Under the pieces are notes generated by a model. That model was given only the letters and a program-made list of their open reading frames with translations. It was not told where the DNA came from and ran no database searches. Source: Thermoplasmata archaeon (GTDB lineage: Archaea; Thermoplasmatota; DTKX01; VGTL01). Taken from it: DNA of 64,000 bases. Location of the stretch: the NCBI GenBank assembly GCA_038851035.1, contig JAWCLH010000001.1:134098-198097 (forward strand), read 5' to 3'. Shown in pieces: positions 22,180-48,294 of the stretch (position 1 is the stretch's first letter; every line of letters starts with the position of its first letter). The position numbers and the translations under genes were made by a program.

Positions 22180-24093
<1,914 letters not shown>

Positions 24094-29071: not shown

Positions 29072-31675
29072 ATGGAGAAGGAGGAACGAGATGGGGGCGC
29101 GGCCGGGGCCGCACCCGCGGGGCAAGTGATTCTTAGACCAATCGAGAAGGAAATGGAGAGCTCGTACATAGACTACGCGATGAGCGTTATTGTCGGCAGG
29201 GCCCTGCCCGACGCGCGCGACGGCCTGAAGCCTGTGCACAGGAGAATTCTGCACGCGATGAACGAGCTCGGCCTGACCCACGACAAACCATACAAGAAGT
29301 CGGCGCGCGTGGTCGGAGAGGTGCTGGGCAAGTACCATCCACACGGCGACACCGCGGTTTACGACACCATCGTGCGGATGGCTCAGGACTTCTCCCTGCG
29401 CTACCCGCTGATAGACGGGCAGGGAAACTTCGGCTCCATAGACGGCGACGCTCCGGCCGCGATGAGGTACACGGAGTGCAGGATGGCCGCGATCGCATCG
29501 GAGATGCTCGCGGACATAGAGAAGGACACGGTGGACTTCGTGGACAACTTCGACGCCACTCTGAAGGAGCCCTCGGTCCTCCCGGCTCTCCTGCCCAACC
29601 TGCTCGTCAACGGCTCGCAGGGAATCGCGGTAGGGATGACGACAAGCATCCCGCCCCACAACCTTGGAGAGGTCGTGGACGCCATTTGCCTCCTCCTCTC
29701 TAAGCCGGAGGCGGACATCGCGGAGCTAATGCAGCTCATCAAGGGCCCGGACTTCCCGACCGGCGGAATCATATACGGCATCGGCGGAATTCTCGACGCC
29801 TACAGGACAGGCAGGGGCTCGATAAAGGTCCGGGCGCGGACTAAGATAGAAGACAGGGGGCAGGGGAGGCAGCGCATCGTGGTCACCGAGCTTCCCTATA
29901 TGGTTAACAAAGCGGCCCTCGTCGAGTCGATCGCGGAGCTTGTCAGGGAGAAGAAGGTCGAGGGCATCGCGGACATCAGGGACGAGTCCGACCGCGAAGG
30001 GATGCGCATAGTGCTCGAGCTAAAGAAGGAGGCGCTGGCCGAGGTCGTGCTCAACCAGCTGTTCAAGCACACCTCTCTCGAGACAACCTTCGGCGCGGTC
30101 AATCTTGCGCTCGTGGACGGGAGGCCGGAGGTCCTCACGTTGAAGCGCCTGCTCCAGTGCTATATCGACCACAGAAGGAGCGTGGTCCGCAGGAGGACGG
30201 AGTTCGAGCTCAGGAGGGCCGAGGAGAGGGCCCATATCCTTCAAGGCCTTCTCGTGGCGCTAGACCACCTCGACGAGGTCATCAGCACCATCCGCTCCTC
30301 AAGGACGCCGGAGGAGGCTCGGGAGGCGCTAGTCGCGCGCTTCGGCTTCACGGAGCCCCAGGTGAGGGAGATTCTGGACACAAAGCTCCAGAGGCTCACG
30401 GGGATGGAGAGAGGGAAGGTCAGGGAGGAGTTCGAGGGCCTCGAGAGGGCCATACAGGACTATAGGGCGACGCTGGCCGACCCCAGCAGAATCGACGGAA
30501 TCATCCAGACCGAGCTCAGGGGGCTGAGGGAGAGGTACGCCGACCCGCGCAGGACCGAGATAGTTTACGAGAGCGCGGACCTCGACATCGAGGACCTGAT
30601 TCCCAATACCGAGATAATAGTCACCATCACGCAGAACGACTACATCAAGAGGATGCCGCTCGACGTCTACCGCCAGCAGAGGCGGGGCGGGAAGGGGCTC
30701 GTCGGCATAGAGACGAAGGAGGAGGACACGGTCGTGGACGTGTTCACCACCCGCGCCCACAACTACCTCCTCTTCTTCACCAGCAAAGGGAAGGTCCACT
30801 GGCTCAAGGCCTACAAGGTGCCGGAGGGCGCGAGGCACGCGCGGGGAAGGCCCCTGGTCAACCTACTCCCCGGCCTGGAGGAGGGCGAGACGATTCAGTT
30901 CACCGTCCCCGTGAGCGATTTCGACGAGAGGCTCTGGGTGGTGTTCGCGACCCGCCGCGGTATCATAAAGAAGACCGCGCTCTCTGCCTACGGTAACCCG
31001 CGGGCCTCGGGCATCATCGCGATTCTCCTCGAGGAGGGCGACAGCGTGGTCTCCGCGGCCCTCTCCGATGGAAGAAGGGAGCTCGTGCTGGCCACGCGCA
31101 GTGGGAAGGCGGTCAGGTTCAGCGAGGAGGACGTCAGGCCGACGGGGAGGGCCACGTACGGCGTCCGCGGAATCACGCTGGAGCCGGGCGATATGGTCGT
31201 CAGCATGGCGTCAGTGTCGCCGGACGACGTCCTTCTCACCGTCACCGAGAACGGCTACGGAAAGAGGACGCCGGTTCAGGACTACAGGCTCGTCCGGAGG
31301 GGCGCGAAGGGGGTCATAACCATAGACACCAACGAAAGGAACGGGCCCGTGGTCGCGGTCATCCCGGTGAGCGACACGGACGACCTGATTCTGACCAGCG
31401 AGAGGGGGATGATGATTCGAATTCCGGTCAGCGGAATTCCGGTGCAGGGAAGGGCCACGATGGGCGTCAGAATCATGAGGCTGGAGCCGGGGGACAAGGT
31501 GAGGGGCGTGGACAGAATCAGAGCCGAGAACGAGGGGCAGAGGGCGGGCGAAGGCGGGGCTGGCACGGAGAATGGTGCGGGGCCGGAGACAGAGGGGGCC
31601 GGAGCAACCCCGGAAAGTGCTGGTAGGGAGGAGGGCGGCGCAGGTGGGGATGGGGAGCGGGGGCCGGGCGGGTGA
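29072..31675 (+). CDS. gyrA: DNA gyrase subunit A
   Basis: 867 residues. Breakage-reunion domain with [20 protein letters not shown] and the DNA-cleaving Tyr133 in AMRYTECRM, a coiled coil (EEVISTIR...), and a C-terminal beta-pinwheel with the GyrA box QRRGGKG (536-542), which separates gyrase from topoisomerase IV and is needed to wrap DNA for negative supercoiling. The quinolone-pocket position equivalent to E. coli Ser83 is Thr. The last ~50 residues are a Gly/Glu/Ala-rich tail. It starts 59 bases after the FG-GAP gene, so gyrB, the membrane protein and gyrA may form one transcription unit. Confidence 0.97.
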
Positions 31676-31949: not shown

Positions 31950-34900
31950 TCACTTGTTCCTCTCCACGAGGGTGTCCCCAGCCTCGCCCTCGGCCTCTAG
32001 CTCCTTGTCCTTAAGCCCCGCCTCGGCGGGCGGAGCGGGGGCCTCGGGCTTCCCAGCCTGCTCCGGCGCCGCCACGGGCGCGAGCCTAGTGGCTTGGTCT
32101 ATGTCCTCAGGCTTCGCCTCGCCCACGCCGCTCTTATCCTTCAGGCCAGCCTTGGCGGGCTGAGGCTCTGGAGCCTCGGGCGGCGGGGCCTCGGGGGGCT
32201 TCGGGGGCTCCTCGGGCTGCTTTTCGGGCTGCTTCTCGGGCGGTTTCGTGGGCGGTTTCGCGGGCTCCTTCGGCCTCTTCTTCATCACCCTCTCGACCCT
32301 CGGCATTGCCGCCCTGCGCGCCTCCAGCGCCTCCCTCTCCCTCCGCTCCGCCTCCGCGGCCTCGATTTCCGCAAGCACCCTCTTCCTTCTCTGGCTCCAG
32401 GAGGCGGTGACAAAATACGTAACTACCGGCAGGGCCAGTCCGATTCCTATCATTAGCCCCGCCAGGTTGAGCATCCAGCTCGTGTCCTCCCTCACCACCA
32501 CCGGCGGCTTCTCCTTCAGGACCACCCGCGACTCGGTGACGGTGTTGCCCGCGGCGTCCGTGCTCTTGATGGTAATTCTGTTCTCGCCGTCCTCGAGCAC
32601 GACAGGAACCGCGAATAGGCCGTCATGACCCACAACGACCACCTGCTCGGTGTTGATTATCAACCTGGCGAAGGGCTCGGTCTGGCCCGTGACGGTTATG
32701 ACCCTTTGCTTCACGGTAATTCCCTCCTCGGGGAAGACTAGAAGAATCGTGGGGGTGGTGGTGTCGAGGGTGACGGTCCTCGTCAGGACGACGGTGTTGC
32801 CGGCCTGGTCCGTGGCCGAGACCACGATTCTCTGCGTCCCGTCCTCTGGGAAGGCGAGGGTCTGGGTGAAGACGAAGTCCACGACCTGCACGAGCTCTCC
32901 ATTGATTCTGACCTCGGCGCCGAAGTCCACGGAGCCCACGACGGTGACGACTCTGGAGGCCAGAGCGAGGCCGTCCGCGGGCGAGGTGAGCACGAGGTCG
33001 GGGGGATGCGTGTCGAGATAGACGACCCTAGTCACGACCCTAGAGTTCCCCGCGGCGTCGGTGGCGACCGTGGTGATGGTGTTCGGGCCCTCGAGGAGCG
33101 TGAGGTATGTCTCGAAGAGCGTGCCGACGACGTTCGTGCTCTGGCCGTTGATGGTGACTGAGGCGCCCTGCTCGGTTGCGCCTGTGACGAGGATGCGCGA
33201 CTGGTTGGTCCAGAGTGCGTCCCTGGGTGCGAAGACGGTCAGGTCTGGCGGGGAGGTGTCGAGGTAGACCGTGAGGGTGCGCTCGACGCTGTTGCCGGCA
33301 GCGTCCCTCGCGGTGACCACAATCACGTTCACGCCCTCTGAGAGGGAGATAAGGGAGACGAAATTGGTGCCCGAGACGTGGGCGGGGAGGCCATTGACGC
33401 TGACGACGGCCGAGGGCTCAGTCCGGCCAATAAACGATATCACCTCCTGATTCAGGAAGGCGCCGTCAGCGGGGCTGGTGACCTCGAGCAGGGGTGGCTC
33501 CGTGTCGAGAGTCACGCGCACTTGTATCGTCTTAGAGTTCCCACTGGGGTCGGAGGCCGTGATGACTATCGTATTGGGGCCATCCTCGAGCGATATCTGG
33601 ATGCTGAAGTGCCTCTTCACGACCGGCGCGGGGAGGCCGTTCACCGTCACGAAGGCGCCCTCGTCGGTCACGCCGTGGACGGTTATCGTCCTCTCGCTGG
33701 TCGCGCTACCGTCCTTCGGGGTGAAGAGGAAGAGGGAGGGTGCGCTGGTGTCTATCGATATCTGCACCAGTATCCGGGCGGTGTTCCCGGCAACGTCCTG
33801 CGCACAGACCTTCGCGACATGGGTGCCGTCAGATAGGAGCCTGGTGTAGCTCCATCTCGTATCCTCAGAGACCGTGATCTCGCTCCAGCCCATATTGTCG
33901 ATGTTGATTGTCACAGCGCCCTCCCTGAGACCGGACTCCTCGTCCGAGGCTGTGCCAGAGAATGTCACGAGTAGTGTGTTTAGCTGGGCCCAGTTCGCCG
34001 GGAATCGAATTTTCAGCTCGGGCGGGGCATTGTCGACGAGAATCATCCGAACCGACGCTGGGCCGTCTAGCATCAGCATCTCGGTCGCGCTGACCCGGCC
34101 CTTGGAGACGCTCAGCCTATGGGGCGTGTACTTGATTGTCATGAAGTTATGGACCGTGTACTCCTTCACCAAAGCGTCCCGGGTGAGCCGCCCCCTCTCG
34201 TCCGTGACCCCGCTGAATACATACTCACCCATAGCGGTGCTTATTGTGACGTGGACGCCCGAGGCGGGGTAATCGTTCTGCCACGTCACCAGCAAGGTCA
34301 GCGGCCATGAGACATTGAGATAGGAGCCCCCGTCCAGCACCCTGAACGTGTTCTTGTTGTGGGTTGAGTTGTACACCTCGACGGTTGCGCTCCGATTGAG
34401 CTGAAACTCGATGTCGTGCAACAGCACCGAGTCCTGTATCGTCGCCCATGAGGCCGCGGCCCGCACCCCCATCGAGCCGGCCTCGCCCTTCAGCTCGCAC
34501 CGGAGCACGTAGGCCCTCGAGCCTTCGTCCAGATTGATGCTGACGGTCTGTACGCCGGTGATTCTGGTGTCAATGACTTCCACGGAACTGAAGTCTAGGG
34601 CCGAGACGCCGTAGTGCGGGTTCTGGACAGTGCAGTTGACCATTTTTATGTAGCTGCCGAGCTGGGCGACGGCGGCGTGGAAGGGGGGCTTTCCGCCGCC
34701 CGGGGCCGGCAACTTGAAGACGCAGTTTTCGACGTACGCGTCCGAGAGGGCCCCCGCCTGCAAGAGAACACTAGTGCTTGGTGTGCTGGGCGAGCCGCTC
34801 ATCTTGTACTCGAGCGTGTTGTCCCGAAGTTGAACGCCGGAGGCCTTGAGCGACAGGTTGAGCAGCACCAACGGCATCCGGCCGGTCCCCCTGCAGTCGA

Positions 34901-36392
34901 TGGTGAAAGTGTTGCCCTGAATCAGGCTGTCTGAGGACTGCATCAGCTCTATCGTGTACATCGCGTCGGCGAAGAACCAGAAAGTGCCTCCCGCGTAGTA
35001 CTGGTAGTCGTAGTACTGAACCGTGAGAGTGTTGTTGATGATTGCGGGCGAGGACCTCGTGCCCTTGATCGAATAGGCGGTCCTTGTGCCCATGAAGCAA
35101 TAGGAGTAGGTGCCGCCGCCGAGATAGTCGCTGAGCATCCTGTTGCCCGAGATGCAGGGGCTCGAGCGCACGAGGTCAATCAGAACGGCGGCGTTGTTGA
35201 TTGTGTTCCCGGTTATGTTCCCGTTCGAGCTCACCAGTCTGATGTTTGCGCCGTAGTACCAGGACATGCTCCGATTGTCTCCTGAAACGTAGTTCTGGTA
35301 GGGCTCGAAACCGTTTCTATCAAAGAGGTTTTCAGTGATATCCAGAGTGGAGTTCTCTGCGTGAAGACCAGTTCCATACACCCAGTTCGCTATATAGTAG
35401 TTATATTCGTACAAGTAGACCCAGAGCTCGTAGATGTCGTAGTACCCCTCCACTGTAGGGGAGACGGTTGTGGGTGTGCTGGCGGGCAGTGCATAGCCGT
35501 TCTTGGTTATTGTGTTATTGTGGATTGTGCAGCGGGAACCGCCTTCGAGCCGAATTCCTGTCCCGTAAACATTTGACATCCGGTTGCCGTAGTCGTACTG
35601 GTACCTGTAGTAATAATAAACATCTCTCGAAGAGTCATATGCCGGGCCGTAGTAGTACTTGTCGTCAATATTGAAGTAGCCCGGGTCGAGTGGGGGGCTG
35701 TAGGAGGAGTAGGACGCGTCGTACCAGGTGTGCAGGTAGCGGTTGTCCGTGATAATGTTGCCGCGGAAGGTAGTGGTTGTGTTGCGGGCGTAGATGCCGT
35801 AGCAGTATAGCGGGCTCTGGCCGTCCTGCCCATTGTACCGGATGACGTTGTCGTTGACGACGGGCGAGCAGTCGAAGATGCTGATTCCTCCAGTCTTGCC
35901 GTGCTCGATGGTGCTGTTCGTGACGCTCACTGAGTCGCTGTATATCTGGATGCCCCCAGCCCAGGACTCATTGTCGCCCCAGGTCTCCTGGACGGTGCAG
36001 GCATCGATGGTCGCCGAGCCCTTGATCACGAATTTGTAGTGGGCGCTGGAGTTGGTCGAAGAGACCAGGCACCCGTTCTTCATCGTCAGCGCTCCACCTG
36101 AGTCCACTTTCAGGGCGTATACGCCGTCCTCCATGATGTCGAAGAGGAGGGTGACGCCGCTCAGACTCAGGCTACCCCCGCTCTTGATGGTCAGGCTCCC
36201 GTTCACAATCGTTATGCTCACGCCGCTGTAGCTCCTGCTGTCCGTGACGGTCCAGTCGCCGTAGACCGTCCCGCCGCTCCCCGGCGGGTCGTTCGTGGCG
36301 AGCGCGCCTGGCAGCAGAAGAAACACGGCGAGTGCCGCAAAAGACGCGGTAAAACCACAGAGAAGCAGCCTACCGGTCCTCATCTCAGGCAC
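31950..36392 (-). CDS. Giant surface protein: right-handed beta-helix, about six Ig-like domains, membrane anchor, cytoplasmic tail
   Basis: 1480 residues. Signal peptide (LLLCGFTASFAALAVFLLLPGALA). Residues about 40-700 are a parallel beta-helix with short Asn/Ser/Thr-rich coils (GNIITDN, GIYARNTTTTFRGN, SVTNSTIEHGKTGGISI); 700-780 is a beta-sandwich; about 780-1290 contains six Ig-like domains, each opening with DT(x)PP- or DNAPP-like sequence and ending in a DAAGN motif. One transmembrane helix (about 1300-1325) is followed by a 150-residue cytoplasmic tail with a charged helix and Pro/Glu/Lys-rich repeats (AGLKDK twice). Beta-helix proteins often bind or cut polysaccharides, but no catalytic residues are evident. 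Its ATG lies 8 bases inside the end of the upstream giant gene, so both are translated from one operon. Confidence 0.82.
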   Translation of the reverse strand: MPEMRTGRLLLCGFTASFAALAVFLLLPGALATNDPPGSGGTVYGDWTVTDSRSYSGVSITIVNGSLTIKSGGSLSLSGVTLLFDIMEDGVYALKVDSGGALTMKNGCLVSSTNSSAHYKFVIKGSATIDACTVQETWGDNESWAGGIQIYSDSVSVTNSTIEHGKTGGISIFDCSPVVNDNVIRYNGQDGQSPLYCYGIYARNTTTTFRGNIITDNRYLHTWYDASYSSYSPPLDPGYFNIDDKYYYGPAYDSSRDVYYYYRYQYDYGNRMSNVYGTGIRLEGGSRCTIHNNTITKNGYALPASTPTTVSPTVEGYYDIYELWVYLYEYNYYIANWVYGTGLHAENSTLDITENLFDRNGFEPYQNYVSGDNRSMSWYYGANIRLVSSNGNITGNTINNAAVLIDLVRSSPCISGNRMLSDYLGGGTYSYCFMGTRTAYSIKGTRSSPAIINNTLTVQYYDYQYYAGGTFWFFADAMYTIELMQSSDSLIQGNTFTIDCRGTGRMPLVLLNLSLKASGVQLRDNTLEYKMSGSPSTPSTSVLLQAGALSDAYVENCVFKLPAPGGGKPPFHAAVAQLGSYIKMVNCTVQNPHYGVSALDFSSVEVIDTRITGVQTVSINLDEGSRAYVLRCELKGEAGSMGVRAAASWATIQDSVLLHDIEFQLNRSATVEVYNSTHNKNTFRVLDGGSYLNVSWPLTLLVTWQNDYPASGVHVTISTAMGEYVFSGVTDERGRLTRDALVKEYTVHNFMTIKYTPHRLSVSKGRVSATEMLMLDGPASVRMILVDNAPPELKIRFPANWAQLNTLLVTFSGTASDEESGLREGAVTINIDNMGWSEITVSEDTRWSYTRLLSDGTHVAKVCAQDVAGNTARILVQISIDTSAPSLFLFTPKDGSATSERTITVHGVTDEGAFVTVNGLPAPVVKRHFSIQISLEDGPNTIVITASDPSGNSKTIQVRVTLDTEPPLLEVTSPADGAFLNQEVISFIGRTEPSAVVSVNGLPAHVSGTNFVSLISLSEGVNVIVVTARDAAGNSVERTLTVYLDTSPPDLTVFAPRDALWTNQSRILVTGATEQGASVTINGQSTNVVGTLFETYLTLLEGPNTITTVATDAAGNSRVVTRVVYLDTHPPDLVLTSPADGLALASRVVTVVGSVDFGAEVRINGELVQVVDFVFTQTLAFPEDGTQRIVVSATDQAGNTVVLTRTVTLDTTTPTILLVFPEEGITVKQRVITVTGQTEPFARLIINTEQVVVVGHDGLFAVPVVLEDGENRITIKSTDAAGNTVTESRVVLKEKPPVVVREDTSWMLNLAGLMIGIGLALPVVTYFVTASWSQRRKRVLAEIEAAEAERREREALEARRAAMPRVERVMKKRPKEPAKPPTKPPEKQPEKQPEEPPKPPEAPPPEAPEPQPAKAGLKDKSGVGEAKPEDIDQATRLAPVAAPEQAGKPEAPAPPAEAGLKDKELEAEGEAGDTLVERNK

Positions 36393-39300
36393 CCCCCGTC
36401 TGCCGTCTGTGAATTCTCAGACCGATTGTGAGCAAAAGCGTGGTCAGAGGTATCATTATGCCAAGCGCCGCAAGCAGGCCGCTGGCCGTCCAGACCCAGC
36501 TCGTCTCCTCAGAGATTCCCGCAGGCTTCTCGACGACCTTCAGTTTCACGGTCCGGGTCACTTGGTTCCCCGCCCCGTCCATCGCGGTCACCGTCACGGT
36601 ATTCCCGCCCTTCCTCATCGTCTGGACGGTCGAGAATTTCCCTTCAGCATCCACAAGCACCGGGACGCCGTTGACGGTCACCCTCGCGCCTGGCTCTGTT
36701 ATGCCGCTGACCGTGACCGAGAGCTCGCTCGTCCTGAAGCCCTCCACGGGCTCGATGAGCTCGAGCGGGGGCGCCAGAGTGTCGACCAACACCCGTAGCT
36801 CCAAAGCGACGGTGTTGCCCGCGGCGTCGCTGCCCTCGACACGAATCACATTTGGACCGTCGGGGAGCTCCAGCTCGGATGTAAAGGTGCCGCCCGAGGT
36901 GTCCACCGCGGCACCGTTAAGGGCAAGTCTCATTCCGGCCTCGCAGGTGCCCCTGACCGTCACGCGGTGGCTCGGAATCAGCTGGCCTTCGTAGGGCTCC
37001 AGAATTATGACGAGCGGTCTTGTGGTGTCGAGCGTTATTATTCGAACCAGCTTTATTGTGTTGCCCGCCCTGTCGACGCCATCGAACAATAGCTCGTTCA
37101 CACCTTCCTGCAGCGTGCAGGTCAGGGAGAAGGAGCCGTCGGGGCCGATGGTGACGAGGCCGCCGTTCATCCTGAGCGACACATCCGTGTCCGTCGTCCC
37201 TTGAACGAGCAGGGTTATCTGGTTGGTAATGCTGTTGTTCTCGGGCGACGTCACGGTCAGGCGAATCTCGTTATCCAGCACCACCGTTCTCTTGATGATA
37301 GCGCGGTTCCCGACCCCGTCGCTCGAGACGACGGTGATCAGGTTGGGGCCTGGGGAAAGCCCGAGCTCGAACGAGAAGCTCCCGTCGGCTTCCAGCTCCC
37401 TCCGGACGTCGTTGACCATGAGGGAGGCGCCCGGCTCGGTCCTCCCGCTGACCAGAACCGAGGCCACCCGGGTCAGGAGGCCGTCCGGGGGGCTGGTGAG
37501 TCTCAGAACGGGAGGAGTTATGTCCAGATTGAGGACCCAGGAGGTGGAGTTGGTGTTGCCCGAGCGGTCCTTCGCGAAGAGGAAGTAGACGTTCCTCCCC
37601 TCCACCAGCCTGAGCGGGAAGGAGAAGCTCCCGTCCGCCCCGACGCTTGCGGGGAGGTAGTTGATGGTCAGGGTCGAGCCCGGCTCCACCCTACCGACCA
37701 GATTCACCGCGATTGAATTACCCCAGCTGTCGCAGGCGGGAGACTCAACGACGATGAAGGGCGGAGTCAGGTCTATGGTCACCCGGACCGATGCCGAGGC
37801 CTCGTTGCCGGCGATGTCCGTGACTTTGGCGGTGATGCTCCAGACGCCCTCGGGGACGTTCTCCATAATGTACAGCCAGCTCCCGGCGGGCAGGAGCTCG
37901 ACCCAGCTGACGCCGTCGTAGCTGAGGCTCAGTTTCTCCATTCCGGAGCCGATGTCGGAGGCGATGCCGACGAGGGTGACTGTGGTGAAGTTCTGGAAGG
38001 TGTCGTCGGCGGGCTCGAGTATCACCACCACGGGCAGGCTGTCGTCAACTATCACAACGGTGGCCTCCATCGTCCTGTCCACGACCACCTTCGTCTCGCC
38101 AGTGAAGCCCGCCTTGCTCGCGGTGAGGGTGTAGGGGGTGTAGTAGCGGGTCGCGAGCCTGGTCTGGGTGTACTCCACTACGGAGAACGGCGGCACCAGC
38201 CCGCTCTCGGTGCAGACGGTCCTGAGGACTTCTGTGCCGAAATTGTCCTTCGCGATCACATCGGCGGAGGGGACGGGCCGTCCGTTCTGCCACGTGACCT
38301 TTATGCCGAGCCACCAGTTGATGATCACAGTGCTCTTGTCGTCGAAGTAGGTCACGCGGGCCTTGTTAAATGTGGAGTTGAGGGACCACACCGTCGAGAC
38401 CCCCGAGAGCTGGAGGTCTGCGGTTGTCGCCTGAATCGAGCTGTCTATGAGGCTCACCCAGGACTCGTCGCTGACGTTGGCTCCGTACGCGCAGGAGGTT
38501 ATCGTGCATCCCTTCAGGGTTCCATTCCCAGAGCTTTCCGCGAGGAACCCGTAGGTGCAGTCCGTTATTTTGGAGGTCACCATGGGCCGGGAGAAATAGG
38601 TCGAGTAGATTGCCGCGTACAGGTGGCTGAAGCTGCAGTCCGTGATCTCGGGCCAGGAGACCATGTCGCAGTGGATGCCATAAGCCCTCCCGTTCCCGTT
38701 GCCAGCGACCGTGATGTTCTGAATTCTGCCTGCCGACCTCTCTAGTTTTACTCCAGTAAGGGCCATATCCGAGCCCGCGGGGGCGTTCAGAAATACCTTC
38801 ATGTCGCTGATTGTGATCCCCTTGACCCCGACCAAAAGCACTCCCGAGCATGGGAGGGTAGAGGGCTTCTCGAGGGTTAGGTTGAACTCCGAGTTGGAGA
38901 GGCTCAGGCTCTGAACCACGCCGGACTTCGTCAGGCCAAGGAGGCTGAGCTTACACTCCTCACGGGTAGCCGTCATCGAGAACTTGGAGCCGTGGACGAC
39001 AAGCTCGCCGAGGCTTGGTTCGGTGCCGCTGGTCGATTCGAAAGTGATGAAGGACTGGGTCGTGCCAGGGGCGTTGATTTTAAAGTCGACGCGTGAGTTG
39101 ATGAACGCGATCCGGCCCATCGGGCCGTCCTGATATATAAGGAACTGGGTCAGGGGCTCGTTGTCGTAGGTGATGTTGAGGGTGGTGTTGTTGAACTCAA
39201 GGACCTCGGTGCCGGGATAGGTCCTTATGAAGGAGAACGTGAGCGGGAAGGTGCCGGTGCCGCCGCCGTAATAGAAGTTGAAGACCGAGTCGTTGAGATA

Positions 39301-42300
39301 GAGCTGGGCCCCGGCCGCGAGGTAGCTCAGCCTCATTGATTTCAGGCCGTTCATGTTCCTGCACTCGAAGAAGCACTTGGAGACTATAAAGGTGGAGCTG
39401 CTGAACCCTCCCGTGTCGCCTCCGAGGAGCATGGGCCCGGACTGAATTCCTGCGGGGCTGTAGTCCCAGACCCGCACATTGCAGTTCTCCATGACGAAGG
39501 GCGTCCTGTCCGGGGAGCGGCCCGTGTAGTAGAACAGGTCGGAGTGCGTGAGGGTGCTCAGGATGTAGGTGTAGTTCAGGAAGAAGTTGCAGTTCTTGAC
39601 CAGGCCTCCGTACGAGCTGGTGGCATAGATGATTGTTACGTCGCGATAAGTGGTCATGTCAATTGTGGTGTTGTCCATGTACAGCTGGGTCGAGCTGACG
39701 TATATCGGCCTCAGGTTGGCGTTGTTGTAGTCCTTGTTGGAGAAGAAGAGGGTGGCGTTTGTAATGTTCACATAGTCGGTCGTGGCGCCTGTGCCGCTGG
39801 CGTAGACACCGTAGATGGTTCCTCCGAGCTCCACCGGCAGACTGAGCTTCATGTTGCGCAAATCGACTTGTTTGCAGCTGCTGGTACAGATAATGTAGAC
39901 TGTCGAGCTCGCGGGCAGCTTCCAGTTTTCCATTATTATGTCGATCGAGTTGAAGTCGAGGGTGAGGCTGGTCAGGCTCGAGGCGTAAATCGCATAAAAT
40001 TGATTGCCCGTGAAGTTCAAAGCGTATATCTTGAAATTGGAGGCGTAGAGATTGGAGTAGCTGGCCAGATATATTCCGTAGTAGATGTAGAATATGTTGT
40101 AGGTTGATGTCACGTCGTTGACACCGCAGTCAATGTAGCTAAGGTTCACATTCTTGAGATAGAGATCGCGGTAGTAATAAGCGTAAATTGGATAATAAAG
40201 ATAGAAGTAGGAGTAGGCGTACGAGGTGGTGTAGTACGAACAGGCTTTGAGGTTCCTGAAAGTGATGTTCGTGTTGTTGAAGTGGGTCTGGCCGTTGTAG
40301 TAGTGATAGCCGAGGGGATAGTAGAAGTAGATATACGCCGTAGAATAGGTCGTGCCCTGATACGCGCGGCAGTACATGTTGTAAAAGTTGAGAGACGAGT
40401 TGTCAAAGCTCATGTGCGAGTAGTAGGTGTAGTAGAGGTTGTAGATGTACATGTAAGCATAGCAATATTGCGAGGCGGCGTAGGCGATGTTGTTTATTTC
40501 CCGGATTGTGAAGTTAAGATTATTGAACGCTGTGTGGCTGTAGTAATAGAGATAGTAGAAGGAATAAATGTAAAGATATGAATATGTGTAATATGATGAT
40601 GCATAGGCTCTATTGTTTACCTTTTCTATCAGGATAGTTAAATTATTGTACAGGGCATTGCTGTAGTAGTACTGATAGTAAATCGGACCGTAGAAATAGA
40701 GGTATGAGTAGGCGTAGTAGGACGTGGAGGCGTAGGATGTGCTGTTGAGGTTGCTGACCCTTATGGTCATCTTCTCGACCGTTATCGGAGTGTAGTAATA
40801 CGGATAGATACCGTAGAAGTACAGGCGGGAGTAGATATAGTATGTCCTCGCTATTGCCTGAACATTTATATTATTGATATTGATATCTGTGTCGTTCAGA
40901 ATAATAGGGGAATAATAATAGGGATACAGCAGATAGAAATAGAAATAGGCGTAGCCATAGGAGCTGCCCGAAGTCCCCGCCGTGGCGTTGCAGTAGAAGT
41001 TCTGGATGTCCATCTTTGTGTAGTTCATCGAAGATGGGCAATAATAATAAAGGTAAACAGGATACATATACAGATATGCATATCCATAATAAGTGGTGGT
41101 GGTCAGGTTGCAGAAAATATCTGCGATAAAGATATCGTTGTAATTTATTCTCGAAAACTCATATGCATAATAGGGATAGAGCCCGTACACATACACATAC
41201 GAATAGGAAGGATACGAGCCCCCCGCCTGGTATGTCTGAGCGGTGATGTTCACGAACCTGATGTATGTGTAGTTCGTGAAGAGCGGGCTGTACTGCTGCG
41301 GGTAGACGCCGTAGAAGTAGACGTATGTGTAGCCGTAATAGAGGGTGGAGTAGGTGTAGGCGCGGACGTTCGTGAAGTTCATCCAGGTGTAGTCCATCGA
41401 GACCGGGCTGTAGTAGTAGGAGTAGACGCCGTAGATGTATATCCGCCCGCCGTATGAGTAGACCGTGGAGGTCTGAGTGGCGATGGAATCGATGCGCGTG
41501 GCGTCAATGGTGGTGTACCTCATCACCGTAGGGACGTAGTAGTAGCTGTAGACGCAGTATATGTAAACGATTGAGTAGCCCTGCTGGGTGATCGACTTTA
41601 TGTCCCTGAGATAGAAGTTGGTGAAGTTCATCTTTACCTCGCTGTAGAGGTAGTAGGGATAAATCAGATAGAGGTAGTTATAGGAGTAGTAGCTGGCGCC
41701 GCCCCGGGCCGAGCTCATGAAATCGGCGACTGTGATTGTGGTGTTGTCCAGCGTCATCGGGCTGTAGTTGTCCGTCCGAATTCCGTAGACGTAGAAGTTG
41801 GTGTTGTAAGTTGTAATCGTTGTGGTGTTGATGAAGCGAATCGTGAGCGTCGTGTACTGGAGCCTCACCGGGGAGTATGAGGTCCCCAAGATGCCGTAGA
41901 AGTTGAAGTTGCTCGTCGAGGAGGAGGGGTTCGAGACATTGGTGTCGATTAGGTTGAGCGTGGTGTAGCTGAGCGTTAGGGGGGAGTAGGAGGTGCCGTA
42001 TATCCCGTATATATTTAGGGTGGCGGAGTAGGCCGCCTGGGCCTTTGCGTCGCAGGAGGTGAAGTTGAGCGTGAGGTAGTTTGAGGTCACGGGGGATGTT
42101 GAGCCCGCGTAGACGCCGTAGATTGTCCGTGTTAGGGCGGCCGAGCTCGTGAGCACATCGAAGTTGATGAAGTCGATGGAGGTGCGGTTGATGAACACTG
42201 GGCTGTTGCCGGTCGCGTATATACCGTAGCTATCGTAGGTGCAGTCTTGGAGGACGATGATCGAATCGTCCACGCTCACAGGGGAGGAGGAGGCGTATAT

Positions 42301-43536
42301 CACGTATCCACCCACGTACCTGTTGTTAAAGAGGCAGCTGCTGACCTTCACCTCCGTCGACACTGCGTAGATGTTGTAGCGGATGTACGTTGACCCCGAG
42401 AGCTGGAAGTCGAATGTGCAGCCATAGAATGTGAGCTTCGAAGAGCTTGCGTAGACGGCGTAGTGGTTGTACTGGTTGTAGTTGTTGCTGAAGCGAACTC
42501 CCTCGAAGCTAAGGGTCGAGCTGGTAGCATAGACCCCGTAGGCCGTCACGCTCGCCCGCGCGTATGTGTAGATGCTCCCGCCGGTGATTTTCGGGGGCGA
42601 GGAGGACTCGGCGTAGATTCCGTACTGCCCGTAGTATAAAGAGTTGTCCTTCATGGTGGGTCTGGAGGAGGAGAGGTAAATCTGGTAGCCATAGGAGGAG
42701 CCGGTGGTGGAGAATCCGTTTCCGGAGAAGGTGTTGCCCAAAATCACATCATTAATGCCCTGTGAATCGCTCCTGAGACCATAGCCATAATACATAGAGC
42801 TTGTTGTATAATAATTGTTGCTAATCGTGTTGTATTGTATAAGCGAGCTGGTTGTCCCATCGCTGATCGCATAGATGCCGTAGGCGTACTTCTCGTTGCC
42901 CCCGAACCCGTTATTATATATATTGTTGTACTGTATCGTTGGTGAGCATCTGTTAATATAAATGCCGCCGGTCTTGCCGTAGGCGATGTAGCTGTTCTCG
43001 ATTTTGGCCGAGGAGGTCGAGTGGAGCTGGATGCCCCCCACCCACGAGGATGTGTCGCCCCACATATCGTAGACCTCGCTCTCGTTGATGTGCAGGGTAC
43101 CGTAGACCGTGAATTTGTAGTCGTAGGAGTCGTAGGAGGCGAGGAGGCTCTGGTAGAACAGGAGCTTCCCGCCGGAGGCCACGTTCAGGGTGTACTGGCC
43201 ATCGGAGCTTTGGTCTATGAAAATCTTAGAATTGTAGACGGTCAGGCTGCTCAAGATGTCGATTTTTCCCGTGACCACCAACGACTCCCCCGCCACAATC
43301 GTGGGGTCGTCTATAATCCAGTCGCCGGAGCCGGAGTAGGCGTCGCCGGACTGCCAGGCCGAGGCGTCCGGCGCGGACGCGATGAGCAGGCACGCGAGCG
43401 CCGCGAGGAACATTCCCAGCAGCCCCAGTCTGAGTGGGTCGGCGGAGGCCGGCGGGGCATGGGTCCGTGCATCCGCGTTGGAGGAATCGGTCAGAAATCC
43501 AATCACTATATCTGCGCGCGGACAACGGGCGGTCAT
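36385..43536 (-). CDS. Giant surface protein: tyrosine-rich beta-helix repeats, Ig-like domains, membrane anchor
   Basis: 2383 residues. Signal peptide at about 36-61 (LGLLGMFLAALACLLIASAP). Residues 65-465 are an ordinary right-handed beta-helix like that of its neighbour (GGIYINRCSPTIQYNNIYNN, GIYAESSSPPKITGGSIY). Residues about 465-1185 are roughly 18 imperfect repeats of 36-43 residues that become extremely rich in Tyr. More beta-helix follows to about 1700, then a short sandwich, about six Ig-like domains (1832-2340; DLTPPFIVVESP, DITPPVLRLTSP, DTTRPLVIILEP) and a C-terminal transmembrane helix (ASGLLAALGIMIPLTTLLLT) with a basic stop. Clearly exported; function unknown. The first ATG (43536) gives a long pre-signal segment, so a later start is possible. 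Confidence 0.82.
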   Translation of the reverse strand: MTARCPRADIVIGFLTDSSNADARTHAPPASADPLRLGLLGMFLAALACLLIASAPDASAWQSGDAYSGSGDWIIDDPTIVAGESLVVTGKIDILSSLTVYNSKIFIDQSSDGQYTLNVASGGKLLFYQSLLASYDSYDYKFTVYGTLHINESEVYDMWGDTSSWVGGIQLHSTSSAKIENSYIAYGKTGGIYINRCSPTIQYNNIYNNGFGGNEKYAYGIYAISDGTTSSLIQYNTISNNYYTTSSMYYGYGLRSDSQGINDVILGNTFSGNGFSTTGSSYGYQIYLSSSRPTMKDNSLYYGQYGIYAESSSPPKITGGSIYTYARASVTAYGVYATSSTLSFEGVRFSNNYNQYNHYAVYASSSKLTFYGCTFDFQLSGSTYIRYNIYAVSTEVKVSSCLFNNRYVGGYVIYASSSPVSVDDSIIVLQDCTYDSYGIYATGNSPVFINRTSIDFINFDVLTSSAALTRTIYGVYAGSTSPVTSNYLTLNFTSCDAKAQAAYSATLNIYGIYGTSYSPLTLSYTTLNLIDTNVSNPSSSTSNFNFYGILGTSYSPVRLQYTTLTIRFINTTTITTYNTNFYVYGIRTDNYSPMTLDNTTITVADFMSSARGGASYYSYNYLYLIYPYYLYSEVKMNFTNFYLRDIKSITQQGYSIVYIYCVYSYYYVPTVMRYTTIDATRIDSIATQTSTVYSYGGRIYIYGVYSYYYSPVSMDYTWMNFTNVRAYTYSTLYYGYTYVYFYGVYPQQYSPLFTNYTYIRFVNITAQTYQAGGSYPSYSYVYVYGLYPYYAYEFSRINYNDIFIADIFCNLTTTTYYGYAYLYMYPVYLYYYCPSSMNYTKMDIQNFYCNATAGTSGSSYGYAYFYFYLLYPYYYSPIILNDTDININNINVQAIARTYYIYSRLYFYGIYPYYYTPITVEKMTIRVSNLNSTSYASTSYYAYSYLYFYGPIYYQYYYSNALYNNLTILIEKVNNRAYASSYYTYSYLYIYSFYYLYYYSHTAFNNLNFTIREINNIAYAASQYCYAYMYIYNLYYTYYSHMSFDNSSLNFYNMYCRAYQGTTYSTAYIYFYYPLGYHYYNGQTHFNNTNITFRNLKACSYYTTSYAYSYFYLYYPIYAYYYRDLYLKNVNLSYIDCGVNDVTSTYNIFYIYYGIYLASYSNLYASNFKIYALNFTGNQFYAIYASSLTSLTLDFNSIDIIMENWKLPASSTVYIICTSSCKQVDLRNMKLSLPVELGGTIYGVYASGTGATTDYVNITNATLFFSNKDYNNANLRPIYVSSTQLYMDNTTIDMTTYRDVTIIYATSSYGGLVKNCNFFLNYTYILSTLTHSDLFYYTGRSPDRTPFVMENCNVRVWDYSPAGIQSGPMLLGGDTGGFSSSTFIVSKCFFECRNMNGLKSMRLSYLAAGAQLYLNDSVFNFYYGGGTGTFPLTFSFIRTYPGTEVLEFNNTTLNITYDNEPLTQFLIYQDGPMGRIAFINSRVDFKINAPGTTQSFITFESTSGTEPSLGELVVHGSKFSMTATREECKLSLLGLTKSGVVQSLSLSNSEFNLTLEKPSTLPCSGVLLVGVKGITISDMKVFLNAPAGSDMALTGVKLERSAGRIQNITVAGNGNGRAYGIHCDMVSWPEITDCSFSHLYAAIYSTYFSRPMVTSKITDCTYGFLAESSGNGTLKGCTITSCAYGANVSDESWVSLIDSSIQATTADLQLSGVSTVWSLNSTFNKARVTYFDDKSTVIINWWLGIKVTWQNGRPVPSADVIAKDNFGTEVLRTVCTESGLVPPFSVVEYTQTRLATRYYTPYTLTASKAGFTGETKVVVDRTMEATVVIVDDSLPVVVILEPADDTFQNFTTVTLVGIASDIGSGMEKLSLSYDGVSWVELLPAGSWLYIMENVPEGVWSITAKVTDIAGNEASASVRVTIDLTPPFIVVESPACDSWGNSIAVNLVGRVEPGSTLTINYLPASVGADGSFSFPLRLVEGRNVYFLFAKDRSGNTNSTSWVLNLDITPPVLRLTSPPDGLLTRVASVLVSGRTEPGASLMVNDVRRELEADGSFSFELGLSPGPNLITVVSSDGVGNRAIIKRTVVLDNEIRLTVTSPENNSITNQITLLVQGTTDTDVSLRMNGGLVTIGPDGSFSLTCTLQEGVNELLFDGVDRAGNTIKLVRIITLDTTRPLVIILEPYEGQLIPSHRVTVRGTCEAGMRLALNGAAVDTSGGTFTSELELPDGPNVIRVEGSDAAGNTVALELRVLVDTLAPPLELIEPVEGFRTSELSVTVSGITEPGARVTVNGVPVLVDAEGKFSTVQTMRKGGNTVTVTAMDGAGNQVTRTVKLKVVEKPAGISEETSWVWTASGLLAALGIMIPLTTLLLTIGLRIHRRQTGGA
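39980..42140 (-). repeat. Tyrosine-rich degenerate protein repeat array (~18 units of ~40 residues)
   Basis: Within the giant gene, units align on YGVYSYYYSPxxxxYTxxxF followed by a variable stretch and an alternating run such as SYAYSYLYF. The first three or four units are modest in Tyr; from about 41,730 leftwards every unit has 7-13 tyrosines (about 150 in about 600 residues, hand-counted). The DNA there is richer in TAT and ATA codons than the flanks. Nucleotide copies are clearly diverged, so the array is old. Confidence 0.85.
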
Positions 43537-43798: not shown

Positions 43799-46219
43799 CT
43801 ATCGCCCACCCCCCTCCACCCTCGACTCCCCGTTCTCCTTGACCACGCGGAATATGTGGTCTGCGAAGCCCTCGAGCTCGCGCTCGTGCGAGACGAGAAT
43901 CAGCTGCCTCGCGCCGAGCTCCCGAAGAACGTCCCTGACCCTCGTGAGCTGCTCGCTGCTGAAGCCGTCGGTCGGCTCATCCAGAATCAAGAGCTCGCCG
44001 CTCCCCGCGCCCAGAACCTCGCGGACCATATGGTTGAGAGCGAGCCTGTAGGCTAGAGCCACGGAGTTCTTCTCGCCGCCGGAAAGGGAGCGGATGTCCA
44101 GCTCGTAGCCGGCCTGGGTCGCGACTGGCGTGAAGCTCTCGTCTATCGAGACGTCGAGCTCGGTCCCCTCGGCGAGCATCCCGAACCACTTCCTGAAGTG
44201 TCTCTCGAAATCGGCGTTGATGCCAGCGAGAATGTGTACTTCAATCGACTCTAAAGCGGGGCAGAAGCACTCATTGAGCCATCTCGCGGCCTCCCTCAGG
44301 CGCTCCAGCTCGCGCGCCCTCGCCTCCCTCTCCGCCAGCTTCCTCGAGCCCCGTTCCAGCTCCGCCCTCGCCTCTTCCAGAGCCCTCTTTCTCTCCGACG
44401 CGGTCGCCCTGAGGGAGCCCAAGCGGCCCAGCGCCTCCTCCCTTCTGGCCCTGACCTCCCGGTGCAGCTCCTCGCTGTAGCGCGCCCTCAGCCCTTCCAG
44501 CTCCTGCCGGACCCTCCCGAGCTCCTCCAGAGCGCTCCCGAGCTCCCTCTTCTTCGTCTCGAAAACCGCCTCCCTGAGCGAGAGCTCCGCAACCCTCCCC
44601 TCGAGCACCGAGAGCTCCCTCCTCAGGGCCTGCCAGCGAGGCCTCATCGCCCGGAGGCCCTCCGCCTCGGCCTCCAGCCTCGCCACGTCCTCCCCACCTT
44701 CCAGCGCCCGAACTCTCTCGGCGAGCTCCTCCCTCTCGGCCACGAGCCTCTTCCTCTCCGCGATGGTCCTCCCGAGCTCCCTGAGCGCCTCCTCGACCCC
44801 CCTGAGCTCCCGAAACCTCTCCTCGAGCTCCCGGAGCCTCTCCCTGCACGCGCGCAGCCTCTCCTCCCTTCTCTCCAGTCTAGCAGCGAGCGCCATCCTC
44901 TCCTCAGCGAGCTCCTTGCTCCTCCCCTCGAGCTCGCCCAAAAGGGCCTTGAGGTGCTCTGGGGAGAGCTCCTGACCGCACCTGGGGCACCTGCCCCTGC
45001 CCTCCAGCTCCCCCAGCGAGCGCCTCTCCTCCCCGAGCTCCCGGAGCTTTTCATCGAGCACGCGAATTCTCTGCTGAATTCTCGCCTGCTCTGTCGTGTG
45101 GCCCTCGAGGCTGCTCTCAACCGAAGGCATCTGAGCCACCTCGGCCCGCAGCGCCTCCGCCCTCTCCTCGAGCCCCCGGCGCCTCCCCTCCTCGCCCTCC
45201 AGCGCGGCGATTCTCTCCTCACAACTCCTGAGCCTCTCCCGGAGGCGCGCGAGCTCCGCCTCGGCCCTCCGCGCCTCCCTCAGCCGGGCCTCGAGCTCCT
45301 CCAGCCTCCGCTCCAGCTCTGCGGCCCTCTCGGCCTCCGGCCTGAGCTCCCCGAGCCTCCGGGCCCCCTCGCGCATCGCCTCGAGTTCCGCCGACGCCTG
45401 TGAGAGCCACGCCTGAAGCTGGCCGACCCTCTCCCCTAGCCTCCCGGCGCTGGCCTCGAGCTCGTCCCTCCTCGCCCTGAGCCTCTCGAGTCCCTCGAGC
45501 TCGCTGTCGAGCGACCGGAGCTCGTCGGCGGCCATGGCAATTCGGCGGCCAAGCTCCTCGAGCTCTGCCGAGCTCCTCCTGACCGCCTCCTCCCTGGCGG
45601 AGAGCTCAATCCTGAGCCCCTCCAGCTCCCCCCTCACGGCCTCGAGCTCGCCGGACCTGATTCTGAGCTCACTCGCGGCCGCCCTCGCCCTCTCCCGAGC
45701 GACCCTATACTCCTCGACCCTGAAGGCCCTCCTAATGGTCTGGAGCCGCTCGTCCTTTTTCATCTCCAGAATTCTCTTCATCTCCTCCTGAGGCGTGAAG
45801 ACCGCGTAGCGGTAGATCACAGACTTCGCCTTCGACGACGGTGGCTCGTTGAACCCCAGGAGCCTCAGAACCTCCGCCTTCATCTCTTCAGCGCTGTAGT
45901 CCGTCCACGCGCCGTCCGAGCGAATTCGGCACTCGACAGTGCCCCCTCCCGAGCCAGAGCGCCTGAACCTCCTGTAGAAAGTGTACTCCCTCCCCCCCAG
46001 CTCGAGCTCGAGCCTCACCCACCCCTCCCTCTCTGAGCTCCTCAGGTAGAAATCAGTGCTCTCCTCCGCAAGCCCAAATAGCGCTAGCTCGATTGCATAG
46101 AGCAGCGTTGACTTGCCCGAGCCTATGTCGCCCTCGAAGAGGACCACGCCCTCCGGGAGCCTGAGCTCCGCCTCCCTGTAGCTCCTGATGTTCCCTAGGG
46201 CTATCGACCTGATTATCAT
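43799..46219 (-). CDS. rad50: DNA double-strand break repair ATPase Rad50
   Basis: 806 residues from ATG 46219 (MIIRSIALGNIRSYREAEL); an in-frame codon at 46255 would add 12 unlikely residues. SMC-like: Walker A GDIGSGKST near the N-terminus, two long coiled-coil arms, the zinc hook CPRC (Cys411, Cys414) between them, then the ABC signature LSGGEKNSVALAYRLALN and Walker B LLILDEPTDGFSSEQL. With Mre11 it tethers and processes broken DNA ends. The gene follows mre11 on the same strand after about 165 bases. Archaeal HerA and NurA, often linked, are not in this window. Confidence 0.93.
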   Translation of the reverse strand: MIIRSIALGNIRSYREAELRLPEGVVLFEGDIGSGKSTLLYAIELALFGLAEESTDFYLRSSEREGWVRLELELGGREYTFYRRFRRSGSGGGTVECRIRSDGAWTDYSAEEMKAEVLRLLGFNEPPSSKAKSVIYRYAVFTPQEEMKRILEMKKDERLQTIRRAFRVEEYRVARERARAAASELRIRSGELEAVRGELEGLRIELSAREEAVRRSSAELEELGRRIAMAADELRSLDSELEGLERLRARRDELEASAGRLGERVGQLQAWLSQASAELEAMREGARRLGELRPEAERAAELERRLEELEARLREARRAEAELARLRERLRSCEERIAALEGEEGRRRGLEERAEALRAEVAQMPSVESSLEGHTTEQARIQQRIRVLDEKLRELGEERRSLGELEGRGRCPRCGQELSPEHLKALLGELEGRSKELAEERMALAARLERREERLRACRERLRELEERFRELRGVEEALRELGRTIAERKRLVAEREELAERVRALEGGEDVARLEAEAEGLRAMRPRWQALRRELSVLEGRVAELSLREAVFETKKRELGSALEELGRVRQELEGLRARYSEELHREVRARREEALGRLGSLRATASERKRALEEARAELERGSRKLAEREARARELERLREAARWLNECFCPALESIEVHILAGINADFERHFRKWFGMLAEGTELDVSIDESFTPVATQAGYELDIRSLSGGEKNSVALAYRLALNHMVREVLGAGSGELLILDEPTDGFSSEQLTRVRDVLRELGARQLILVSHERELEGFADHIFRVVKENGESRVEGGGR

Positions 46220-46383
46220 CCCGGTATCGCCCCCGCTCTCTCCCGGGCCCCACACTTACCCCCACTGACCGCGCGGGGCCACGCTGCGCCACGACCGCCC
46301 GCGCGCTCCCGAGCGAATCCCGGCCCGATTCTCGGCAAGAGCAATTCCCGGGTTCCGCCGATGCTCAACCCCCGCACCTCCCC

Positions 46384-47940
46384 TCATTCTCCGAGCCTCG
46401 TCTGCCTCGTCCTCGCCAGACCCCTCCGGGAGGCCGCGGACGCGCCCGCGGGCGCGGCCCTGGAGGAGCTCGCCGGTCTCCCCTCACCCCTCTCCGCTAC
46501 CCTTTCCCGCTCCCCGACTCCAGCCCCCACCTCTCCCCGGAGCTCTGGAATAGCGCCCGGAGCTCCGGCCCCAGAAAAGGCCTCAGCGGCCCCGCGGGCC
46601 GCGCCGCCCTCCTCACGCCCGAGCGGTCCGAGGAGGACCCTCTCCACGAGCGCCGAGGCCTCCGCCCTCTGCTCCTCCTGCGTCCCGGTCATCTCGCCGC
46701 CGAGAGCGCGCAGTAGCTCCCTCGCGCGCACCAGAGCCTCCTCCGGGCGTAGCTCCGGGAGGGAGAAGACCCCGCGCGCCAGATGCTCCCTGAGAATTCT
46801 ATCCTCTGTCTCGGCCCTCGTGCGGCCCGGCTCGAACCTCGCCCCCGCCTGCTCCCTCGACTCAAGACCGCTCCGGCTAACATAGACGGTGTAGGCCCCG
46901 GTCTCCAAAAGCAGGGCGCGCGGGAGCTGCGTGTCCACCTCGGAGGCCTTCCCGGAGGCTAGCTGGCCCGATACCTTGATGAGCACTATCGCCCCCGCGG
47001 CGTCCGCCTCCCCAGCCCTCCCCCTGAGTTCTGCGCTCACGTCCTCGGGCCTGCGTCCCGAAGCGTCGGCCTCGATGACCACGATTCTGCGTGAGGGGAC
47101 CCTCCTGAACTCGAGCCTCGGCGCTCTCCCCCGCTCCAGCTCGACGATGTAGAACCCCCTCTCCTCGCGCGCCTCGAGATCCCTGTAGCCGTCGCCGAAG
47201 AGCGGGCCGGGGTAGGCGACCGTCCCGAGACCCGGGAGCTCGGCCCTCACCCTCTTGTGCACGTGGCCCCCGGCGTAGTAGTCGAACCCCGGCGGGAGCA
47301 GAGAGGCGGGCATCGATTCGATTTCGGAGAGCTCTCGGGGCTTCAGCTCACTGAGGGCCGCGTGGAAAGCGAAGATTCTCGGGGCCACGCTCCGCGCGCC
47401 CCCCTCGGCTCCTCCGCTCCTTCCGCTATCTCCGTCATCTCTGGCGCCATCGCCCCCCCCGCCGCCGTGGAGGCCGAGCGCCTCGGAGGCGTCGAGCCTC
47501 TCGTAGTATACCCTATCCAGACCGAGCCTCCTCCCCGGCAGGCCCGCTATGACAGTGCCCGTCCCGGGGTCCACGGTCGGCTCTATGACCACGCCCCCAT
47601 CCTCCGACGTTCGCGCCCTGGCCACCTTAACAAACACGCCCGCGCTGTGGAGCACATCCACCATCGACCTCTCCGTCGCGCTGAAGTCGTGGCTTCCGTA
47701 GACGATGTACACGGGCGTCCCGCCGTCGATGAGCCTGCGGAGCCGGGCCGTGGCCCTCTCGACCACGCCCATGTCGGGAAGGCTGTTGTGGAATAGGTCC
47801 CCGCAAATAAGGACGAAGTCCACGCGCTCCCTCTCGCAGATGTCCAGCGCGGACAGGAAGGCCTCCAGATTGGCCTCGCGCAGCGCGGGCTCCCTGAATG
47901 CGCCCAGATGAACGTCGGCCATGTGGGCGAAGCGAACCAC
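46384..47940 (-). CDS. mre11: DNA double-strand break repair nuclease Mre11
   Basis: 518 residues from GTG 47940 (VVRFAHMADVHLGAF), preceded by GGGGCAGGGA. Calcineurin-like phosphoesterase motifs in order: DVH, GDLFHNS, YGSHDFS (Ser where GNHD is usual), a lone conserved His in FHAAL, and GGHVHKR. These bind two Mn2+ ions for nuclease activity. A Gly/Asp-rich loop of about 30 residues (near 47,380-47,480) interrupts the core. The C-terminal ~100 residues are helical and then Ala/Gly/Arg/Glu-rich low complexity. The frame upstream of the GTG to 48294 is spurious. Confidence 0.9.
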   Translation of the reverse strand: MVRFAHMADVHLGAFREPALREANLEAFLSALDICERERVDFVLICGDLFHNSLPDMGVVERATARLRRLIDGGTPVYIVYGSHDFSATERSMVDVLHSAGVFVKVARARTSEDGGVVIEPTVDPGTGTVIAGLPGRRLGLDRVYYERLDASEALGLHGGGGGDGARDDGDSGRSGGAEGGARSVAPRIFAFHAALSELKPRELSEIESMPASLLPPGFDYYAGGHVHKRVRAELPGLGTVAYPGPLFGDGYRDLEAREERGFYIVELERGRAPRLEFRRVPSRRIVVIEADASGRRPEDVSAELRGRAGEADAAGAIVLIKVSGQLASGKASEVDTQLPRALLLETGAYTVYVSRSGLESREQAGARFEPGRTRAETEDRILREHLARGVFSLPELRPEEALVRARELLRALGGEMTGTQEEQRAEASALVERVLLGPLGREEGGAARGAAEAFSGAGAPGAIPELRGEVGAGVGERERVAERGEGRPASSSRAAPAGASAASRRGLARTRQTRLGE

Positions 47941-47970
47941 TCCCTGCCCCTCTGGGCGTATGTAATTCGT

Positions 47971-47979
47971 GATATAAAG
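47971..47979 (-). promoter_or_regulatory. Putative TATA box of the mre11-rad50 operon
   Basis: Minus-strand CTTTATATC, 31-39 bases before GTG 47940; predicts transcription start within about 10 bases of the start codon. Confidence 0.5.
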
Positions 47980-48294
47980 AGTTGGAGGGGGAATGGGTGA
48001 AAGAGGCGCGCCGGTCCGGCTCGGCGCCGCTCCCCGCCCCCCTCCGCAGCCGCGCGGGGAGGCGGGATACTGCAGAAAGGCTCCGTATCGCGCAGCGATC
48101 ACGCCTCTGCGACCCCGCCGCTCCCTCACTGTGGCGAGGATGGGGGGCTCACTGCGCGCGCCCCCAGGACGTCGGGAGGAACCGCCCGGATTTCCATGAC
48201 GGTGAGCCGCGCGAGCCTCAGCACCGCCGCTCAGTGCGCCCTCGCACTGAACCGCCCACCAGACGCCGGAGCCCCGGCCATCGCACCGGCCCAT
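47980..48294. other. Intergenic region upstream of mre11, no gene seen
   Basis: GC-rich sequence between the mre11 promoter and the decayed calcium-binding-repeat fragment. Long open frames exist on both strands because of high GC, but their composition (Arg/Pro/Ala/Gly) and the promoter position argue that they are not genes. Confidence 0.5.

Follow-up and report, generated by a model that had tools for sequence, protein, structure and literature searches.

What does an archaeal surface protein do with a long stretch in which about one residue in four is tyrosine, and what structure could such a stretch build? This question is raised by a gene in the window, i.e. the 64,000 nucleotides of a Thermoplasmata archaeon contig analysed here. 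The gene (positions 36385–43536, minus strand, as are all parts of it given below) is one open frame for a surface protein of 2383 aa, which was divided with the help of Pfam; its possible start codons were inspected. The start codon is uncertain, and the signal sequence of a relative suggests a start closer to the hydrophobic stretch. This stretch is signal-like and ends the N-terminal leader (aa 1–60, 43357–43536), where it is followed by WQSG in the alignment with the relatives at locus L022 of genome G001. Next comes an ordinary right-handed beta-helix (aa 61–437, 42226–43356) with 46–53% identity to the G001 relatives and an AlphaFold2 pLDDT of mostly 80–94. The Pfam family Beta_helix (PF13229) matches in four stretches, best at aa 289–449 (E 6.7e-22, 78.2 bits, cut-off 25.9); it is this flanking helix and not the dense array that is matched. 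The tyrosine array itself spans aa 438–1186 (39979–42225) and consists of 19 units of 33–43 aa, the dense part being units 5–18 (aa 585–1153, 40078–41784) with nine Tyr columns per unit. The remaining beta-helix, from aa 1187 to about 1740 (38317–39978), has an ordinary Tyr content. An Ig-like stalk (36517–38316) with Big_13, five Glucodextran_B and Big_6 domains, on which the Ca_tandemer adhesin repeat scores too, leads to a membrane helix at the C terminus, followed by a tail that is short and basic (36418–36489), as predicted from the sequence. The initial annotation had spoken of a giant archaeal surface protein; the Ig-like repeats and the membrane helix agree with this, as does the assignment of the relative to a Euryarchaeota archaeon.

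Downstream follows a paralogue of 1480 aa (31950–36392, minus strand), which shares the architecture of the array protein and carries Tyr-rich insertions. Because the two genes overlap by 8 bases and are alike in architecture, they probably form a single operon. YYYYRYQYDYG is found among the Tyr-rich insertions of the paralogue, which also carries Glucodextran_B six times and has a cytoplasmic tail rich in Pro and Glu. Directly upstream of the surface gene pair lie Rad50/SbcC-like and Mre11-like genes (43799–48294, minus strand). Elsewhere in the window, a further surface protein with FG-GAP and Ig domains (24115–29013, plus strand, 1632 aa) is found between gyrB (22195–24093) and gyrA (29072–31675), and a protein with a histone deacetylase domain (Pfam, 292 bits) is encoded at 5572–6588 on the plus strand.

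The span aa 466–1186 contains 165 Tyr in 721 residues (22.9%) and a single Trp. For aa 601–1165 the value is 147 of 565 (26%), hence the hand count of about 150 Tyr in about 600 residues in the initial annotation was right within counting error, and the best 300 aa reach 27.7%. The repeats are equally clear. About 18 repeats of some 40 aa, about 15 of them extreme, had been counted at first; aa 438–1186 divide into 19 units with nothing left over, and units 6–18 hold 8–13 Tyr apiece. Tyr autocorrelation peaks at 41–42 and at 83 residues, and with leave-one-out profiles 18 of the 19 units score far above 200 shuffles of themselves, unit 19 barely so. Tyr pairs at a distance of two residues number 66, well above the 38.1 ± 4.5 of shuffles that keep the composition (z 6.2). 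The frame remains unbroken over all 2383 codons, the array contains no stops and third positions are GC-rich throughout, with a GC fraction of 0.71 for the dense part and 0.79–0.85 elsewhere in the gene. Together with the Tyr-alternating strands in the homologous gene of a related genome, this makes a frame or assembly artefact unlikely.

Within units 5–18 the nine near-constant Tyr columns are occupied by Tyr in 110 of 123 filled cells. Five of these columns alternate along the main strand, where one parity has Tyr in 61 of 67 cells and the other in 0 of 54 (Fisher p 5e-28); the places in between are taken by Ser, Ala, Gly, Ile, Leu, Phe and Val, never by Tyr. Four further columns follow at the turn after the main strand (YYY-S-P). 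The parity shifts between the fifth column and the first Tyr of the turn (G-I-Y), therefore only five columns are claimed for the Tyr face. The columns were taken from an alignment which is prone to line up Tyr, whereas the excess at a distance of two residues is independent of it. The nine aligned columns support the initial proposal that Tyr takes equivalent positions in successive coils. Phe occurs in none of the 123 Tyr-column cells but in 19 of 98 core-column cells (p 7e-8). At buried aromatic positions Tyr and Phe normally interchange, and the strict lack of Phe agrees with a face exposed to water or with a need for the hydroxyl. Since Phe is excluded from the Tyr columns yet present in the core columns, we infer an outward orientation of the Tyr side chains, which would also be stacked.

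Along the second strand of the unit, one parity is taken by Ile, Phe, Leu, Val and Met, the other by Asn, Thr, Asp and Arg. N-glycosylation sequons are enriched (22, compared with 12.4 ± 3.0 in shuffles), and 21 of the 22 are located on this strand or its turn. As the genome also has a match to the oligosaccharyltransferase STT3, the polar face opposite the Tyr face is probably glycosylated. The STT3 match (G000:C1:71915–72631, minus strand, locus L052) sits within an open frame of 2377 codons, which is unusually long for an oligosaccharyltransferase.

How such units might fold was modelled with AlphaFold2 in two ways. In a long model of aa 60–1259, aligned with ten relatives, the pLDDT is about 90 in the preceding helix, about 80 in units 1–5 and 50–65 in units 6–18. 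Units 11–14 (40564–41061) were in addition modelled alone as four coils, with an alignment made of three in-register blocks from the same protein; here the mean pLDDT is 85.7 and the pTM 0.78, and each 40 residues form two long strands, joined by short turns. For the long model, Foldseek matched parallel beta-helices (pertactin, Ag43, NosD, alginate lyases), polysaccharide lyases and tailspikes among them, with weak E-values (best 1.5e-3). Those of the four-unit model, with FapC, beta-helix adhesins and lyases among them, are still weaker (best E 2.3e-2), and the comparison with viral models gave nothing firm. The models of the dense array contain regularly repeated strands. We therefore predict a solenoid, on evidence that is good though not decisive, and with E-values this weak the fold class remains a prediction for the dense part. 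The membership in the beta-helix family which had been suggested at the outset is borne out, at the level of prediction, by the Pfam match of the flank and the repeated strands of the models.

The repeats are not young. Between units the median identity is 46% at the DNA level and 28% at the protein level, and at 681 aligned Tyr pairs the two Tyr codons (TAT/TAC) agree in 51%, where 53% is expected at random. Because the codons are randomised in this way, the units appear as old duplicates in which Tyr was retained rather than as fresh copies; recent tandem duplication is rejected, and recent slippage is disfavoured.

The family has just one further genome, G001 (contig VGTL01000048, Euryarchaeota archaeon M_DeepCast_200m_m1_298), whose name points to a deep lake sample, presumably from Lake Tanganyika. 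Its locus L022 (G001:C48:5000–23039) has three tandem beta-helix/Ig genes compared with two genes here, a difference in gene order which suggests that one copy was duplicated or lost. Gene A of this locus has about 61 aa where the array protein has about 690. Gene B is the closest relative, with 53% identity in the first helix and two YxYxYxYxY coils. Two other members of the class, G003 and G004, have one such coil each, again in beta-helix/Ig genes. A class-level family of beta-helix/Ig/TM proteins, comprising the paralogue at 31950–36392, L022 in G001, L025 in G004 and L063 in G003, has the architecture in common and bears YxYxYxYxY-type strands in single coils. No relative seen has more than two such coils, and among 390 genomes of the phylum the long array occurs here alone.

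Searches of 390 genomes of the phylum, both with the profile of the repeat and with the array in full, matched this genome only. Neither viral contigs nor phages and plasmids yielded the array, hence a viral or plasmid origin is unsupported. The YxYxYxYxY pattern at the DNA level occurs eight times in this high-GC genome, seven times in the array gene and once in its neighbour; as judged by a reversed-pattern control, the phylum-wide search for this pattern is noisy in AT-rich genomes and informative for high-GC class members only. A weak likeness between the G001 gene and the unit profile is hidden by the composition correction of HMMER. Without the correction its best coil reaches 16 bits, which is not above shuffled units; therefore this likeness rests on the YxYxYxYxY pattern. 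A different type of Tyr alternation, unrelated to the array, was seen at locus L065 (G001:C14, 1453–2379, plus strand), where a protein has a YGYGYGYSYPYPY low-complexity stretch next to membrane helices.

Among described systems, surface proteins with a right-handed parallel beta-helix (PF13229; NosD, pertactin, Ag43) resemble the array protein by the Pfam match of its flank and the Foldseek matches of the long model, and the adhesin-type architecture with a membrane anchor is common to both. Unlike them, the array has 40-residue coils of about one quarter Tyr, and its dense units match no family. The C-terminal Ig-like repeats pass the cut-off of the Ca2+-stabilized adhesin repeat (NF033510, NCBIfam; 82.3 bits against 50), but only the stalk is matched; the head would be a Tyr solenoid and adhesion is putative. 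Ice-nucleation proteins such as InaZ and PbINP are solenoids with a Tyr ladder, for which a role as dimer interface has been proposed (PMC9418140, PMC10727499). Both they and the array have Tyr at an equal position of successive coils, with one Tyr per 16-residue coil there and nine per 40-residue coil here. Nevertheless, the array is not a relative of these proteins: the organism is another one, no sequence relation was seen and the coil length differs. The repeats of ice-nucleation proteins are 16 residues long, carry TxT and have Tyr as their third residue, whereas the units here have 33–43 residues and no TxT column. By analogy, the ice-nucleation ladder is the nearest precedent for how a Tyr face would work; the Tyr parity and the absence of Phe are consistent with an outward stack, and a role as protein-protein interface is putative. 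The claim that no described family has this pattern stands in so far as the dense units have no match in Pfam, NCBIfam or, by sequence, in the PDB, nor the array in the other genomes searched, but it has to be narrowed, as single Tyr ladders are known from ice-nucleation proteins. On solenoids, an aromatic ladder usually consists of a single column. A multi-column Tyr face appears to be new; its novelty lies in how many columns there are and how dense Tyr is.

Judging from this anatomy, we give about an even chance to a function in self-association or adhesion, exerted by an outward Tyr face of a membrane-anchored solenoid on an adhesin-like stalk. The outer part of the protein would be a long right-handed beta-solenoid borne on the Ig-like stalk domains and anchored in the membrane. 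In about 14 of its coils the main strand would have grown longer, with Tyr taking over the side that faces outward, to give five stacked columns plus four at the adjoining turn, and the opposite sheet, polar and rich in sequons, would be glycosylated and face the water. The Tyr face would form a flat, uncharged, hydroxyl-bearing and sticky surface. Either the Tyr ladders of neighbouring solenoids would zip together, or the face would dock on the envelope of another cell.

The same face might bind carbohydrate or mineral, its rings stacking on the sugar rings of a polysaccharide or docking on a particle. In favour of this, the beta-helix proteins found similar by Foldseek include polysaccharide lyases and tailspikes, and the commonest Pfam match of the stalk is the Ig domain B of glucodextranase, though this family is a general Ig-like repeat. 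But carbohydrate-binding platforms usually include Trp, of which there is just one in 721 residues, the face is unbroken and not a groove, and Pfam matched no catalytic domain in the array protein; we consider this reading unlikely. Less probable again is a neutral or near-neutral expansion of low complexity, in which a permissive outer face drifted to Tyr and no function is specific to Tyr. The short gene A of G001 shows the region to be dispensable in the family, and other paralogues carry Tyr-rich insertions as well. However, nine Tyr columns were kept over 14 units despite randomised codons and 46% DNA identity, with strict parity and not one Phe, whereas drift would often yield Phe, Ser, Asn or His.

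Three further readings concern the chemistry of the rings or of the water around them. In a coat cross-linked by di-tyrosine, oxidised neighbouring Tyr would bond covalently and harden the envelope, and the density and stacking would bring many rings within reach. Di-tyrosine cross-linking was considered in the initial annotation, and for an enzymatic route the genome gives no support: it has no multicopper oxidase domain in a search whose control was positive in 8 genomes, and a tyrosinase search, which had no working positive control, was empty too. We regard such a coat as improbable. That the array conducts electrons or holes, or acts as a sacrificial buffer of radicals, is very hard to uphold. 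The coil spacing of a beta-helix is about 4.8 Å, and Tyr columns at this distance could in principle pass holes. Charge hopping, likewise raised at first, gets no support from the genome, in which neither a Paired_CXXCH domain nor a pair of CxxCH motifs within 15–45 bases was found, so that nothing points to an extracellular cytochrome as partner; moreover, there is almost no Trp and the Ig stalk separates the array far from the membrane. Finally, an ice- or water-ordering surface as in ice-nucleation and antifreeze solenoids may recall the outward Tyr ladder of the former, likewise solenoids, and the Tyr-rich site of a midge antifreeze protein, as cited in PMC9418140. The TxT water-organising motif is missing, the coil has 40 and not 16 residues, and the name of the relative G001 reads as lake water, with no link to cold known; this reading is scarcely credible.

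Beyond the preferred role in self-association or adhesion, a bolder view would see in the array a continuous aromatic sheet of five stacked Tyr columns over about 14 coils, with chemically important hydroxyls. Along the surface of the cell it would carry holes or radicals, or else it would build an archaeal coat as a zipper made purely of aromatic rings. We hold it to be a long shot, and to our knowledge a multi-column Tyr face has so far been described neither for carrying holes or radicals nor for building a coat. With five or more Tyr columns, Phe excluded and about 14 diverged coils, the array is a compact test case for what stacked and exposed Tyr do, whether they serve lateral assembly or adhesion, or else cross-linking or the transfer of charge. 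It is also a natural scaffold for the design of aromatic protein surfaces. For the archaea themselves, it offers a handle on the function of a large class of uncharacterised beta-helix/Ig surface proteins in uncultured lineages.
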